The notes beneath the pieces were generated by a model. It searched no databases. It had not been told where the DNA came from and saw nothing but the letters and a program-made list of their open reading frames with translations. Below are positions 211-5,130 of a stretch of 5,130 nucleotides of DNA, piece after piece. The DNA is taken from positions 1-5,130 of the forward strand of contig JALOPK010000265.1 of NCBI GenBank assembly GCA_025453925.1, read 5' to 3'. Positions within the stretch are counted from its first letter, which is position 1, and every line of letters begins with the position of its first letter. A program made the translations under genes and the position numbers. The stretch comes from Candidatus Eiseniibacteriota bacterium. Its GTDB lineage: Bacteria; JAFGKV01.

Positions 211-385
211 CAGGATGAGGCGGGGCCCTCGGGCAAAGCGGCCAACGAATGCCGGGGGTGGGGGTGACACTGGCAACCCGCCTCGTGGGAAAGGGGGCAG
301 GCTGAGATCCGACAAGACCGAGCCGTTCCAAGCCGTGCGGTTCCGCGTGCTTGCAGCGAGACCGACCGCAGGCCTCCCTCAAGCC

Positions 386-393
386 AAAGGAGG
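386..393 (+). promoter_or_regulatory. Strong ribosome binding site fixing the permease start
   Basis: AAAGGAGG lies 5 bases before ATG at 399. It selects this start over an in-frame upstream ATG at 351, which would add 16 non-hydrophobic residues encoded across this site. Confidence 0.85.
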
Positions 394-398
394 AGAAC

Positions 399-2018
399 AT
401 GCCTGAGCAAATGACGTTCGCCCGCAAGGCCAGCGGCCTTGTACGGGGTCTGTCTTTCCTGGACGCTTTCGGAGTCGGCTTCATGAATCAGGGGCTGACG
501 CCCAGCATGTGGGTGATGATCAGCTTCGGTCTGGGCGTGTATCTCGGGGGCAACCTGCTCCTGGCCACGGCGATCTCGGCGCTGCTGTGCGGGATTGGCT
601 TCTCTCTCGTATGGGGCATCCTGGGTGGATCGATGCCGCGCTCCGGCGGCGAGTACATCTACAACTCGCGCATCCTCCACCCGATCATCGGCATCGCCGA
701 ATCCTTCGGCAACGCCTTTGTGTGGATCATGTGGATCTTCGTCCTGGCGCCCTACACGGTCGACCCCGGCCTGGTCATGATCTTCCAGTTCCTGAACCTT
801 CCCGCCGCGGCCGAGTTCTGCACCCACCCGCTCGCGCTATTCATCGTCGCCACCCTGGTGAATCTGATCGGGATGCTCTTCGTGGTCTTCGGGGTGAAGG
901 TGTTTGCCCGTGTGCAGAAGGTGGTCATGGCGGTGGCCATCCTGGGCACGCTCATCATCCTGCTGGTCTTCAGCTTCACGACGCATGAAGCCTTCGTCGC
1001 GGCCTGGAACAGTCTGGCGGCTCAATTTGGCTCCCTGGACTACGAGGGCTTCCTGGCGAGTGCCCGGGCGGCGATTGAGGAGAGCGGGAAGACCCTCCCC
1101 ACGACCTGGAACTGGTTCGACACCTTCGGCGTGATGGTGGCCGGTTCGTGGATGTTCGCCTACGCGTACTGCATCACCTTCATCGCCGGCGAGGTCAAGC
1201 GCCCGGACAAGACCATCATCCTGGCGAACCTCACGGCGGTGCTGGTGCCCGCCGCCTTCATGATCTGGCTGGCCGCGGCCCTCTACCGCACCGTCGGTTT
1301 CGAGTTCCTCTCGGCGGCAGCCTGGGTGGACAACGCAGGCGTGGAGGCGATTGCGGGATACGCTTTGCCCTGGCCTCCGCACTTCGTCGGGCTGGCGGCG
1401 GTCATCACGCAGAACCCGTTCGTGGTCTTCATGATGGGGCTGTCGTACATCCTGTTCACCATCTGGTGGGTGGCCCTCTCCTACCTGGCGTTCCCGCGCA
1501 TCCTGTTCGCCTGGGGCATGGACCGCATGGGGCCCAAGTGGTTCTCCGACATCAACTACCGCTGGGCTTCGCCGGTCAAGAACCACATCCTGTGCTTCAT
1601 CCTGGCGGAGCTCGGAATCGTGGTCTATGCCCTGGGCCTGGATCCCATGGCAGGGCTCTCGGTGACGGGCATGGAGATCGTCTCGGTCTTTGGCGTCACG
1701 GCCATTGCCGCGGCGGTCTTCCCCTTCTCCAAGAGGGCAAAGGCCATCTGGGACTCCTCTCCCTACAAGAAGTGGAACATCCTGGGGATTCCAGTCGTGA
1801 CCATCGGCGCGGTGTTCAACCTGATCTATCTGGGGATCCTGTTCTACTTCTTCTTCTTCATGAAGGAAATGGGGGAACAGGAACTCGTCAGTGGTTCCCT
1901 GACCCTGTATGCGATCGTGTGGGGTCTGGGGATTGTCTGGTACTTCTTCTGGAAGGCGCGCAACAAGAAGGTGGGCGTCGACGTCGGAATGACCTTCGGG
2001 GAACTTCCGCCTGACTAG
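399..2018 (+). CDS. APC-superfamily amino acid/polyamine permease
   Basis: This 539-residue integral membrane protein probably imports an amino acid or polyamine by proton or sodium symport, or by exchange. Most of its length is hydrophobic segments compatible with about 12 membrane helices. Hallmarks of the APC family are SMPRSGGEYIYNSRILHP at residues 79-95, AGEVKRPDK after a buried segment at 263-271, and FPRILFAWGMDRMGPKWF at 365-382. A polar, probably solvent-exposed loop spans roughly residues 193-240, longer than in many family members. The length is close to the usual 450-550. The start at ATG 399 is set by AAAGGAGG five bases upstream. The gene follows an aminotransferase resembling putrescine aminotransferases, so a polyamine or omega-amino-acid substrate is a reasonable guess. 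The substrate cannot be read from the sequence. No frameshift or internal stop is present. Confidence 0.93.
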   Translation: MPEQMTFARKASGLVRGLSFLDAFGVGFMNQGLTPSMWVMISFGLGVYLGGNLLLATAISALLCGIGFSLVWGILGGSMPRSGGEYIYNSRILHPIIGIAESFGNAFVWIMWIFVLAPYTVDPGLVMIFQFLNLPAAAEFCTHPLALFIVATLVNLIGMLFVVFGVKVFARVQKVVMAVAILGTLIILLVFSFTTHEAFVAAWNSLAAQFGSLDYEGFLASARAAIEESGKTLPTTWNWFDTFGVMVAGSWMFAYAYCITFIAGEVKRPDKTIILANLTAVLVPAAFMIWLAAALYRTVGFEFLSAAAWVDNAGVEAIAGYALPWPPHFVGLAAVITQNPFVVFMMGLSYILFTIWWVALSYLAFPRILFAWGMDRMGPKWFSDINYRWASPVKNHILCFILAELGIVVYALGLDPMAGLSVTGMEIVSVFGVTAIAAAVFPFSKRAKAIWDSSPYKKWNILGIPVVTIGAVFNLIYLGILFYFFFFMKEMGEQELVSGSLTLYAIVWGLGIVWYFFWKARNKKVGVDVGMTFGELPPD

Positions 2019-2097
2019 TGCGGCCGGGCTTGCGACGGAGCATGGGGGTGAGCAGGTGAGCTGACCTTCATCCTTCGTTGCCTCCAGACGAGTGGTC

Positions 2098-2148
2098 GTC
2101 GAGGCGGCACGGCATGCGGGCTGCAGGGTCGGTGTGTGCCGCCTCGAC
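2098..2148 (+). repeat. Perfect 13-bp inverted repeat with 25-base spacer, upstream of the phosphoesterase gene
   Basis: GTCGAGGCGGCAC (2098-2110) and GTGCCGCCTCGAC (2136-2148) are exact reverse complements. The spacer (2111-2135) contains the short palindromes GCATGC and CTGCAG. The right arm ends 21 bases before ATG 2170. A second, mutually exclusive hairpin is possible: GGGTCG (2126-2131) with CGACCC (2145-2150), which uses part of the same right arm. No T tract follows. It may be a transcript 3' end for the permease, an attenuator-like switch on the next gene, or a protein-binding operator. The repeat is seen directly; its role is unknown. Confidence 0.8.
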
Positions 2149-2169
2149 CCCTCCTGGTGGGAGAGTTGC

Positions 2170-3111
2170 ATGGGCAAGGAAATCCGTCTCTTCTTTGTCA
2201 CGGATGTGCATGGCTCGAATGTGTGCTATCGCAAGTTCCTCAACGCCCTGAGGATCTATCGCGTCGACGTGGGGATTCTCCTGGGTGACCTCACGGGCAA
2301 GGTGCTCGTCCCCCTTGTGGACAGGGCCGGAGGGGGTTGGGAAACCACCCTGATGGGGAGTCAGACCGAGGCGACAACGGAGAAGGAACTGGATGAACTC
2401 AAGAAAACGATCGAGATGATGGGCTACTACTGGGTTCATCAGACGCCGGATGAGTTCAAGGCGCACCGCGAGGATCCCGGGAAGGTCGACGCTCTCTTCA
2501 AACATCTCATGCTCTCGCGGTTGCGGGAGTGGATTGCCCTGGCGGATGAGCGCCTGGCGGGGTCCGGTTTCCACGTCTACATGGCGGCCGGGAACGACGA
2601 CCACTTCGAGGTGGATGGCGTGATCGAGGATTCCTCGGTGGTCGTCAACTGCAACAACCGGAACGTGCCCGTCGGGGAACACGAGATGGTCACGTTCTCA
2701 TGGGCGAATCCCACCCCCTGGAACACCCCGCGCGAGAAGCCGGACGAAGAACTCGAGCCGATGCTGGAGGAGTTGATTGCGACCGTCAAGGACAAGTCCA
2801 GCGCCATCTTCAACTTCCACGCGCCCCCCTACGGATACGCGCTGGACCTTGCGCCGAGGTTGGACGAGAACCTGGTCCAGGCCGCCGATGACAAGATCCA
2901 TGTCGGGAGCCGTGCGGTCGCCAAGATGATCGAGAAGTACCAGCCCTTGATCGGACTGCACGGCCACATCCATGAGTCCAGGGGTGCGCAGAAGGCGAAG
3001 CGCACGCTGCTCATCAATCCCGGAAGTGAGTACTCCGAAGGAATCCTCAAAGGTGTGGTGGTCATTCTGGAAAAGCATCAGGTTAAGGACTACGTCTTCA
3101 CGTCCGGATGA
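2170..3111 (+). CDS. Calcineurin-like metallophosphoesterase
   Basis: This 313-residue cytoplasmic protein has no signal peptide or membrane segment. It carries the complete metallophosphoesterase signature in order. The motifs are TDVHGS (Asp12, His14), GILLGDLTG (Asp40), AAGNDDH (Asn142, Asp143), NFHAPPYG (His217) and LHGHIHES (His264, then Gly-His-Ile-His at 265-268). These residues bind the two-metal centre that hydrolyses phosphomono- or phosphodiesters. A roughly 100-residue, charged and mostly helical insertion separates the GD and GN motifs and probably shapes substrate choice. ATG 2170 is preferred because GGGAG lies about six bases before it and translation begins straight into the first beta strand. 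An upstream in-frame GTG at 2092 would add 26 unrelated residues across the inverted repeat. The stop overlaps the start of the nucleotidyltransferase gene, so the two are very likely co-translated. The physiological substrate is unknown. Confidence 0.9.
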   Translation: MGKEIRLFFVTDVHGSNVCYRKFLNALRIYRVDVGILLGDLTGKVLVPLVDRAGGGWETTLMGSQTEATTEKELDELKKTIEMMGYYWVHQTPDEFKAHREDPGKVDALFKHLMLSRLREWIALADERLAGSGFHVYMAAGNDDHFEVDGVIEDSSVVVNCNNRNVPVGEHEMVTFSWANPTPWNTPREKPDEELEPMLEELIATVKDKSSAIFNFHAPPYGYALDLAPRLDENLVQAADDKIHVGSRAVAKMIEKYQPLIGLHGHIHESRGAQKAKRTLLINPGSEYSEGILKGVVVILEKHQVKDYVFTSG

Positions 3112-3935
3112 GGCAGCCGATGACCCAGCCAAGGCGTTTCAGGTTACCCAAAGACATCCCGCTCGAGGAGTATCCGACGCCCGAAACCTACCTCGAGGAG
3201 GCCCGGCGGCTCACGGAGGAGGCGCGCGCGCAGGGGATCGTCCTGCGCGTCATGGGCCCCATCGCGCTGCATTTCTACTTCCCGGATCACGTCGATCTGT
3301 ATCGGCGGATGGAGCGCCTGGGGGAGAGGGTGTTCACCGACATTGACTACGCGGCGTATTCCAGACACCGGGGCAAGATCGTTCCCTTCTTTGAATCCCA
3401 GGGCTACGAGCTGGAGAAGCGGGCGGCGATGATCAGCGGCGGGGAGCGCCACATCTTCTTCGGCGATCGGATCCCGATGATCGATGTCTTCTACGATCGT
3501 CTGGACTACAACCACCCCATCGACTACCGGGGACGGCTCGACATCCACCCCTGGTGCGTCTCGCTGGCGGATCTGCTACTGCAGAAGCTGCAGATCGTCC
3601 GGATCGGCGACAAGGATCTGAAGGACGCCGTCCTGCTGCTGGTGGCCGCGCCGGTGGGCGGAGCCGGGGAGATGGAGATCGATGCCGACTATGTGGCGGG
3701 GATTCTGGCAGATGACTGGGGCTTCTATCACACCGCCACCGGCAACCTGGAGAAGGTGAAAGAGGTCATCGGGAGCATCGCCGCATTGCGTGACGATCAG
3801 AAGGCGGCCGCCCTGGCCAAGGCCGATCACCTGCTCGGGATGCTTGAGGCGAAACCTAAGACCGGGAAGTGGAAGAAGCGAGCTGAGATCGGCACGAAGA
3901 GACCCTGGTACAAGGAGGTGGGAGACTGGGACTGA
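3108..3935 (+). CDS. Nucleotidyltransferase-fold protein (AbiEii/minimal-NTase-like), uncharacterised
   Basis: This 275-residue soluble protein has the layout of a polymerase-beta-type nucleotidyltransferase. A glycine turn (VMGPIALHF, Gly50) leads to TDIDY (Asp78 and Asp80), and a third acidic position sits in the strand MIDVFYD (Asp126). A helical segment follows, SLADLLLQKLQIVRIGDKDLKD (151-173), like the K..D region seen in AbiEii-type and related NTases. Such enzymes transfer a nucleotide to a protein, RNA or small molecule. The usual Gly-Gly or Gly-Ser of the first motif is Gly-Pro here. The C-terminal third is charged and ends in a basic, Trp-containing tail. ATG 3108 overlaps the upstream TGA (ATGA), which implies coupling with the phosphoesterase. 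ATG 3120, with GAGG six bases before it, is an equally possible start four residues in. The fold call is from motifs I can see; the target is unknown. Confidence 0.7.
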   Translation: MRQPMTQPRRFRLPKDIPLEEYPTPETYLEEARRLTEEARAQGIVLRVMGPIALHFYFPDHVDLYRRMERLGERVFTDIDYAAYSRHRGKIVPFFESQGYELEKRAAMISGGERHIFFGDRIPMIDVFYDRLDYNHPIDYRGRLDIHPWCVSLADLLLQKLQIVRIGDKDLKDAVLLLVAAPVGGAGEMEIDADYVAGILADDWGFYHTATGNLEKVKEVIGSIAALRDDQKAAALAKADHLLGMLEAKPKTGKWKKRAEIGTKRPWYKEVGDWD

Positions 3936-3958
3936 TGGAGGGCAGCGGCACGGCTCGG

Positions 3959-3976
3959 AGGGGTCGGAAGGCCCCT
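3959..3976 (+). terminator. Hairpin with GGAA tetraloop after the nucleotidyltransferase gene
   Basis: AGGGGTC (3959-3965) pairs with GGCCCCT (3970-3976) through seven pairs, one of them U-G, closed by the stable GNRA-type tetraloop GGAA. It begins 24 bases after the stop. No T run follows, so it may be a non-canonical terminator or a 3'-end stabiliser for the phosphoesterase/nucleotidyltransferase transcript. Confidence 0.4.
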
Positions 3977-4105
3977 GGACGCGAGGACCATTCGTCAGAG
4001 CGCCGGGAGCGCCATCCACTGATCGAAGGAGCACATGCCCTCGATCCGAACATGCGGGAGGAGCAGCCGCTCGCGGTTGTCATGTGAGCCCGCAAGGAAG
4101 GACCC

Positions 4106-4674
4106 GTGTCCGACGATCGCTTCGAAGCCGTGATGCAGAGCATCTGTGACGGCGAACCTGAGGTGGCGTCCGAGCTTGCCCGCAAGTCCCTCCAGGAAGG
4201 CCTAGACCCGCTTGAGGCGATCAACAACGGATTCATGCCGGGGTCAATCACGTCGTGGAGGGCTTCAGCTGCGGGGATGCCATTCTGCCCGACCTTGTGC
4301 ATGCGGGAGAAGCGATGAAAGCGGCCGTCGCCGTGCTCGATCCGGAACTGGCCAGGCGTGGTCACAGCCGGAAGGCGCTGGGCGAAGTCGTCGTTGGAAC
4401 CGTCAAGGGCGGCATCCACGACATCGGCAAGACCTGGGTCGGGACGATGCTGTCTGCGGCCGGATTCCAGGTCCACGATCTGGGCGTCGATGATTCCCCG
4501 GAGCGTTTCGCCCACAAGGCGCGCGAGGTCGATGCCACGATCGTGGGGGTGAGCGCCCTGCTGACGACGACCATGGTCAACCAGAAGTCGGTGATCGAGG
4601 CGCTCGATGACCTCGGGCTGTGTCCGAAGGTCAAAGTCATGGCAGGCGGTGCGCCGGTGACGCCATCGCCTTGA
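4106..4674 (+). pseudogene. Methyltransferase-type corrinoid (B12-binding) protein, frameshifted and truncated
   Basis: The intact family (MtbC/MttC/MtaC-like, about 210 residues) carries methyl groups on cobalamin between a substrate methyltransferase and an acceptor. Reading starts at GTG 4106, with AAGGA seven bases upstream, and gives 46 residues of the N-terminal helical cap (ending EAINNGFMPG). The frame then breaks at a G4 run (4240-4243). Resuming one base back restores VNHVVEGFSCGDAILPDL, and the helical cap runs on to HAGEAMKAAVAVL. The Rossmann B12 domain follows: VKGGIHDIGK, VGVSALLTTTMVNQ and [10 protein letters not shown]. One missing G explains the shift. The cobalamin ligand His (reconstructed residue 105, codon 4417-4419) is kept, but the motif Asp two residues before it is Gly (4411-4413). 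Homology stops at about residue 186, after GGAPVT, and a TGA follows at 4672-4674. The last 25 or so residues of the domain are replaced by the mmsA fragment. No methyltransferase partner is present in the window. A sequencing or assembly error could account for the shift. Confidence 0.85.
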
Positions 4675-4937
4675 TCAACGGGGCCGAGTGCGGCTGTCAG
4701 GCGTGTCTCTCTACTGCCAGCGGGACGGCTGCCCGGCGCTTCCGTTCTGAGACGCAGGCGGGGAACATCGGGATCAACATCGGGGTGGCGGCGCCGACGG
4801 CCTTCTTCCCGCTCAGCGGATGGAAGGTGAGCTGCTTCGGCGATCTGCGCGCGCAGGGGCTGGATGCGGTCAAGTTCTTCATGCAGAAGAAGGTCGTGAT
4901 CGAGCGCTGGCCCAAGGAGCGGACGCGCAAGTTCTGA
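4659..4937 (+). pseudogene. mmsA: C-terminal fragment of CoA-acylating methylmalonate-semialdehyde dehydrogenase
   Basis: Intact MmsA (about 490-500 residues) oxidises methylmalonate or malonate semialdehyde with NAD and CoA to propionyl- or acetyl-CoA, in valine, beta-alanine or inositol breakdown. Only the last 92 residues are here. They begin at DAIALIN and run through [50 protein letters not shown] and the typical end [14 protein letters not shown]. The NAD-binding domain and catalytic cysteine are absent, so no dehydrogenase activity is expected. Homology starts exactly where the corrinoid-protein homology stops, in a different reading frame. Several usually conserved positions look changed: the expected YGN appears as CGC, the expected LFT as LST, and an expected Phe-Phe-Gly as Cys-Phe-Gly. 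That fits decay after loss of function. The expected residues are from memory of the family, not an alignment. Confidence 0.85.
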
Positions 4938-4957
4938 TCCGAGGCTGGCCCTATCGC

Positions 4958-4973
4958 ATCCGGGCACCGGGAT
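4958..4973 (+). other. Short hairpin downstream of the mmsA fragment
   Basis: ATCCGG (4958-4963) pairs with CCGG and AT (4967-4970, 4972-4973) around a GCA loop, with one bulged G at 4971. It lies 20 bases after the mmsA stop and lacks a T tract. It could be a remnant of the transcript end of the original mmsA gene; the evidence is weak. Confidence 0.22.
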
Positions 4974-5028
4974 CGCGGCAAGAGATCGTACGTTGTCTGC
5001 CGGTCTGTCGATCAGCAGGCGAGGAGGC

Positions 5029-5130
5029 GTGGAAGAGATCCTTGACAGCCCGGAGGAGGATCCCCTGACGGATGAGGTGTCATCCCGGCTGGATGACATC
5101 CTGCGGCGTGCCGACAGTGAGCTGCATGAG
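5029..5130 (+). CDS. Unrecognised gene start, running off the window (partial)
   Basis: Frame 1 has no stop from 4938 to the end of the window. From GTG 5029 it reads as 34 acidic, helix-prone residues with GC-rich third positions, including DEVSSRLDDILRRADSELHE. I do not recognise the family. The start is uncertain. GAGGAGG at 5021-5027 lies only one base before the GTG, too close for normal initiation. An upstream TTG at 4993 would add 12 residues but has only a weak ribosome binding site. It may be a real gene whose start lies elsewhere, or an open frame by chance in high-GC DNA. Confidence 0.25.
   Translation, partial: MEEILDSPEEDPLTDEVSSRLDDILRRADSELHE

Follow-up and report, generated by a model that had tools for sequence, protein, structure and literature searches.

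Here we describe the remnants of two genes, and probably of a third, at one end of a contig from Candidatus Eiseniibacteriota. The window, by which we mean the whole 5,130-nt stretch of DNA that was analysed, is the entire contig C299 of a MAG that consists of 502 contigs and is 82% complete. The features at issue, all on the forward strand, are as follows.

4106-4240, + strand, frame 2: N-terminal part of a corrinoid protein pseudogene (B12-binding_2 helical domain)
4238-4243, + strand: frameshift, one base short at a GGGG run, where frame 2 gives way to frame 1
4255-4662, + strand, frame 1: C-terminal portion of the same pseudogene, with the B12-binding domain, cut after GGAPVT
4659-4661, + strand: putative deletion junction, with GAC common to both parents (corrinoid GTG-AC(N), mmsA GAC-GCC; placed by orthologue alignment)
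4659-4937, + strand, frame 3: mmsA pseudogene, 3' tail only, closing with its own stop codon (4935-4937)
5020-5130, + strand: probable remnant of the C-terminal end of an MttB-family methyltransferase gene, found with a custom HMM and running off the contig end

The N-terminal corrinoid segment can be aligned with orthologues as far as ...DPLEAINNGFMPG; it matches the MtgC model at 2.5e-6 and Pfam PF02607 at 1.1e-4, the latter slightly below the curated cut-off. Orthologues are unbroken across the frameshift site, where they read GFVxGVNxVGExFSCGDAFLPEL. Beyond it, 4255-4662 matches the MtgC, MtbC and pyl_corrinoid models at E values of 1e-41 to 1e-38 (1e-41 for MtgC) and PF02310 at 2.3e-22. 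The model matches end at GGAPVT, which agrees with the limit of about 4662 proposed earlier for the corrinoid homology from the sequence alone. In orthologous proteins, 29-32 further residues follow GGAP[V/I]T, so that the same sequence-only reading was right about a C-terminal loss but set it slightly too low, at 25 or so residues. The Asp of the DxHxxG B12 motif, conserved in at least 95% of orthologues, is replaced by Gly in the window (column 53; GIHDIGK). Of 61 conserved columns, 5 are changed in the corrinoid fragment, and 2 of 31 homologues reach that number; the decay signal is less clear when this fragment is taken alone. A functional methyltransferase corrinoid protein has an intact two-domain frame and the DxHxxG cobalamin-binding motif; in the window the frame is broken at about 4240 and truncated at about 4662, and the motif is absent.

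The mmsA homology begins at 4659 in another frame, just where it had been placed before, and covers positions 394-477 of the 477 in TIGR01722 (5.3e-19). Its 68 bits compare with a curated cut-off of 448.5 bits for full-length MmsA; about 393 N-terminal residues are absent, in line with the 400 or so first estimated. At 46 near-invariant columns (at least 95% conserved), the tail is changed at nine; for 77 homologues scored leave-one-out at the same columns, the mean is 0.48 and the highest count 5. The closest intact gene, that of the Chloroflexi MAG locus L028, is 75% identical at the amino acid level and differs at 51 of 276 nt; 12 of these differences fall at first, 12 at second and 27 at third codon positions, as against 11, 4 and 32 between the mmsA genes of L028 and L032. 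In the mmsA tree the window tail is sister to L028 (support 0.77), and its terminal branch of 0.33 is the second longest, only that of the distant L004 being longer. Together with the Asp-to-Gly change in the corrinoid fragment, these conserved-site, codon-position and branch data indicate that the genes are no longer under selection. The remnants no longer encode working proteins.

At the join itself, the two parents necessarily have GAC in common, and up to about 5 nt may be shared, depending on their codons; the earlier statement that only the bases around GTGAC/GAC are common agrees with this. About 46 nt past the junction, the orthologous corrinoid genes have a segment for SEDAIGAV, in many cases with GACGCCATCG, so the DAI segment is attributable to either parent. 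The join may have arisen in two steps, with a longer first homology, a single step being the simpler history. A repeat scan of 3936-5130 revealed only short imperfect pairs. None of them lies at the junction, and the interval is free of mobile genes. No second copy of the junction was found in the assembly.

The last 111 nt of the window encode VEEILDSPEEDPLTDEVSSRLDDILRRADSELHE, which can be aligned, without a shift in register, to the C-terminal end of MttB-family methyltransferases. A custom HMM of this C-terminus gave 17.5 bits, versus a best score of 6.0 in 2000 shuffles, and an HMM from another sequence set gave 16.2 bits versus 6.4 in 3000 shuffles. The segment amounts to only about 34 residues; it had no match in Pfam, PF06253 included, and the MttB group commonly found with the window's corrinoid subfamily gave it 3.5 bits, within the shuffle range. 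This moderate evidence points to a probable mttB tail with the first ~440 codons missing. The sequence-only reading had overlooked this tail, as well as the frameshift at about 4240 and the conserved-site changes in both fragments.

All three pairings of corrinoid, mmsA and mttB genes occur among relatives. A corrinoid gene lies directly upstream of mmsA in one of 80 mmsA loci, namely L028 (JAPLGR010000070.1), where the two share a strand and overlap by 4 nt. This bears on the prediction that a close relative should carry the two genes near each other: the pair exists, and beside the closest mmsA, but its corrinoid protein is only 50% identical to that of the window, falls in a different tree clade and is not orthologous. 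Like the window, L028 has the corrinoid gene 5' of mmsA; unlike the window, it has both genes intact, a corrinoid gene of another subfamily and no mttB directly after mmsA within its contig. Its positions 341-3645 hold a row of LacI-type regulator, corrinoid gene and mmsA. Orthologues of the window's corrinoid gene (at least 63% identity) had an MttB-family gene directly beside them in 17 of 17 extended loci and mmsA in none of the 17, within the 5-18 kb examined. For the remaining pairing there are three loci, from Anaerolineales/Anaerolineae MAGs, in which mttB comes directly and closely after mmsA (L044 10001-11756, L070 10001-11745, L042 10001-12269). L044 and L070 have additional MttB genes in the vicinity, and no corrinoid gene was detected in any of the three. 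A locus with all three genes in the order proposed below was not found among the relatives' loci. Since the L028 corrinoid gene is non-orthologous and the orthologous corrinoid genes adjoin mttB with no mmsA nearby, we hold it as likely, and not more, that corrinoid gene and mmsA were once neighbours.

The rest of the contig was also compared. Positions 399-3935 hold APC permease, metallophosphoesterase and nucleotidyltransferase-like genes, a cassette that also lies near mmsA in L093 (67-79% identity) and, more distantly and in another gene order, in L092. Synteny among carriers of these three genes had been suggested as a check; L093 does have mmsA upstream of all three, but with the window tail this mmsA shares only 60% identity. 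When 400 genomes were screened for the phosphoesterase, only the genome of L093 itself had a close copy (79%), all others being at 49% or below; at the DNA level, nothing closely resembling the region turned up in 98 genomes. On a sister-species contig (G001:C95, locus L116), the phosphoesterase and nucleotidyltransferase are 37-40% identical and occur with neither corrinoid gene nor mmsA. Two other genomes of the phylum gave no mmsA match, so the direct ancestor cannot be read there. The closest relatives are L093 for the permease, phosphoesterase and nucleotidyltransferase, the class of L028 for the corrinoid protein and L028 itself for mmsA; all come from Chloroflexota records, and the two other genomes of the contig's own phylum hold distant copies only. 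The contig may have been gained laterally or binned wrongly; tetranucleotide composition does not decide the matter.

Elsewhere in the assembly, which may lack 18% of the genome, no mmsA was found. Contig C447 carries an apparently intact corrinoid gene adjoining homocysteine-methyltransferase-like and MttB genes, and C13 another MttB gene. What appears to have been lost, as far as an assembly possibly 18% short can tell, is the corrinoid–mmsA–mttB cluster, and mmsA. The earlier suggestion that the locus records loss of a methyltransferase/semialdehyde pathway therefore stands for the cluster and is overstated for the methyltransferase pathway, because the genome retains other corrinoid and MttB genes.

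In our reading, a corrinoid–mmsA–mttB cluster has collapsed here through two internal deletions and one frameshift, and we assign a probability of about 80% to the join being the scar of deletions within a decaying bacterial operon, that is, ordinary gene decay. As in a deletion-derived pseudogene, the remnants of two genes lie in order on one strand with their flanking parts absent, and they bear the marks of relaxed selection (conserved-site changes, second-position changes, a long branch). In the ancestor, one strand would have carried, in succession, a corrinoid-protein gene, mmsA and a gene of the mttB family. A deletion at short microhomology (GAC, perhaps to ~5 nt) would have joined corrinoid gene to mmsA, taking the last ~30 corrinoid codons, the first ~393 mmsA codons and anything between, at least ~1.3 kb. 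With the join out of frame, the corrinoid frame ends a few codons past it; a separate one-base loss at the G run broke the same frame upstream, and a second deletion probably took most of the mttB gene. The inactive remnants drift. The join, the frameshift and the surplus of conserved-site changes are observed, whereas the deletion mechanism, the gene order of the ancestor, the identity of the mttB tail and the succession of events are inferred. The original proposal of an illegitimate-recombination deletion between once-neighbouring genes is thus well supported as to a gene-joining deletion, but at least one further lesion is present, and a relative with the exact ancestral arrangement was not found.

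Other origins of the join were weighed against decay by deletion. Misjoining of unrelated contig ends during assembly, with the intact genes elsewhere, would suit a MAG fragmented into 502 contigs and a window whose tetranucleotide distance of 0.192 lies at the edge of the bin (0.138-0.204 for sampled contigs of 4.4-5.9 kb). We consider such a chimera very unlikely because just 3-5 nt are common at the join, far under the usual assembly overlap, and because decay marks both fragments, which is not expected of intact genes; the missing 5' part of mmsA is, moreover, on no other contig. An insertion or translocation that carried the mmsA tail from elsewhere to its present place, instead of a deletion between neighbours, is unlikely: the remnants are all on one strand, mmsA, corrinoid and mttB genes are pairwise neighbours in relatives, and the scanned interval showed neither a repeat at the junction nor a mobile gene. 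In its favour are the orthologous corrinoid loci, which lack mmsA within the 5-18 kb examined, and the mismatch between the organism with the closest mmsA and those with the closest corrinoid genes. That the locus yields a functional protein, truncated or fused, for example through frameshifting across the join, is scarcely credible; the two homologies do abut closely, but there are two frame breaks, the DxHxxG Asp is lost, all of MmsA before model position 394 is gone and the rate pattern is one of relaxed selection.

For annotation, the two ORFs of the window should not be labelled corrinoid protein and dehydrogenase; beyond this, a pseudogene scar is of little importance. A literature search found nothing specific. 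The recurrence of mmsA near MttB-family and corrinoid genes in Chloroflexota could hint at the substrates of uncharacterised MttB proteins. From the pairwise adjacencies in relatives comes a hint, to which we give long odds, of a three-gene unit in Chloroflexota-like bacteria, in which a corrinoid carrier, an MttB-type demethylase and malonate-semialdehyde dehydrogenase would couple methylated-amine demethylation to breakdown of the carbon skeleton; beta-alanine or 3-aminoisobutyrate betaine would be a guess at its substrate.

Among known systems, the corrinoid protein of the window shares the two-domain B12 carrier build of MtgC/MtbC/MttC-type corrinoid proteins (TIGR02370, NF047995, PF02607 + PF02310) and is up to 72% identical to such proteins of Chloroflexota encoded beside mttB-family genes; unlike them, it is frameshifted and lacks the last ~30 residues and the DxHxxG Asp. 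The mmsA tail, like MmsA/IolA methylmalonate/malonate-semialdehyde dehydrogenases (TIGR01722), reaches the normal stop and shares 75% identity with its intact counterpart in the Chloroflexi locus L028, but it lacks the ~393 N-terminal residues of the intact enzymes and has conserved residues altered. The locus as a whole resembles those bacterial pseudogenes that arise when DNA between short repeats is deleted; they likewise show an out-of-frame join, 3-5 nt of microhomology and further lesions in one unit, and the locus differs from them in nothing essential.
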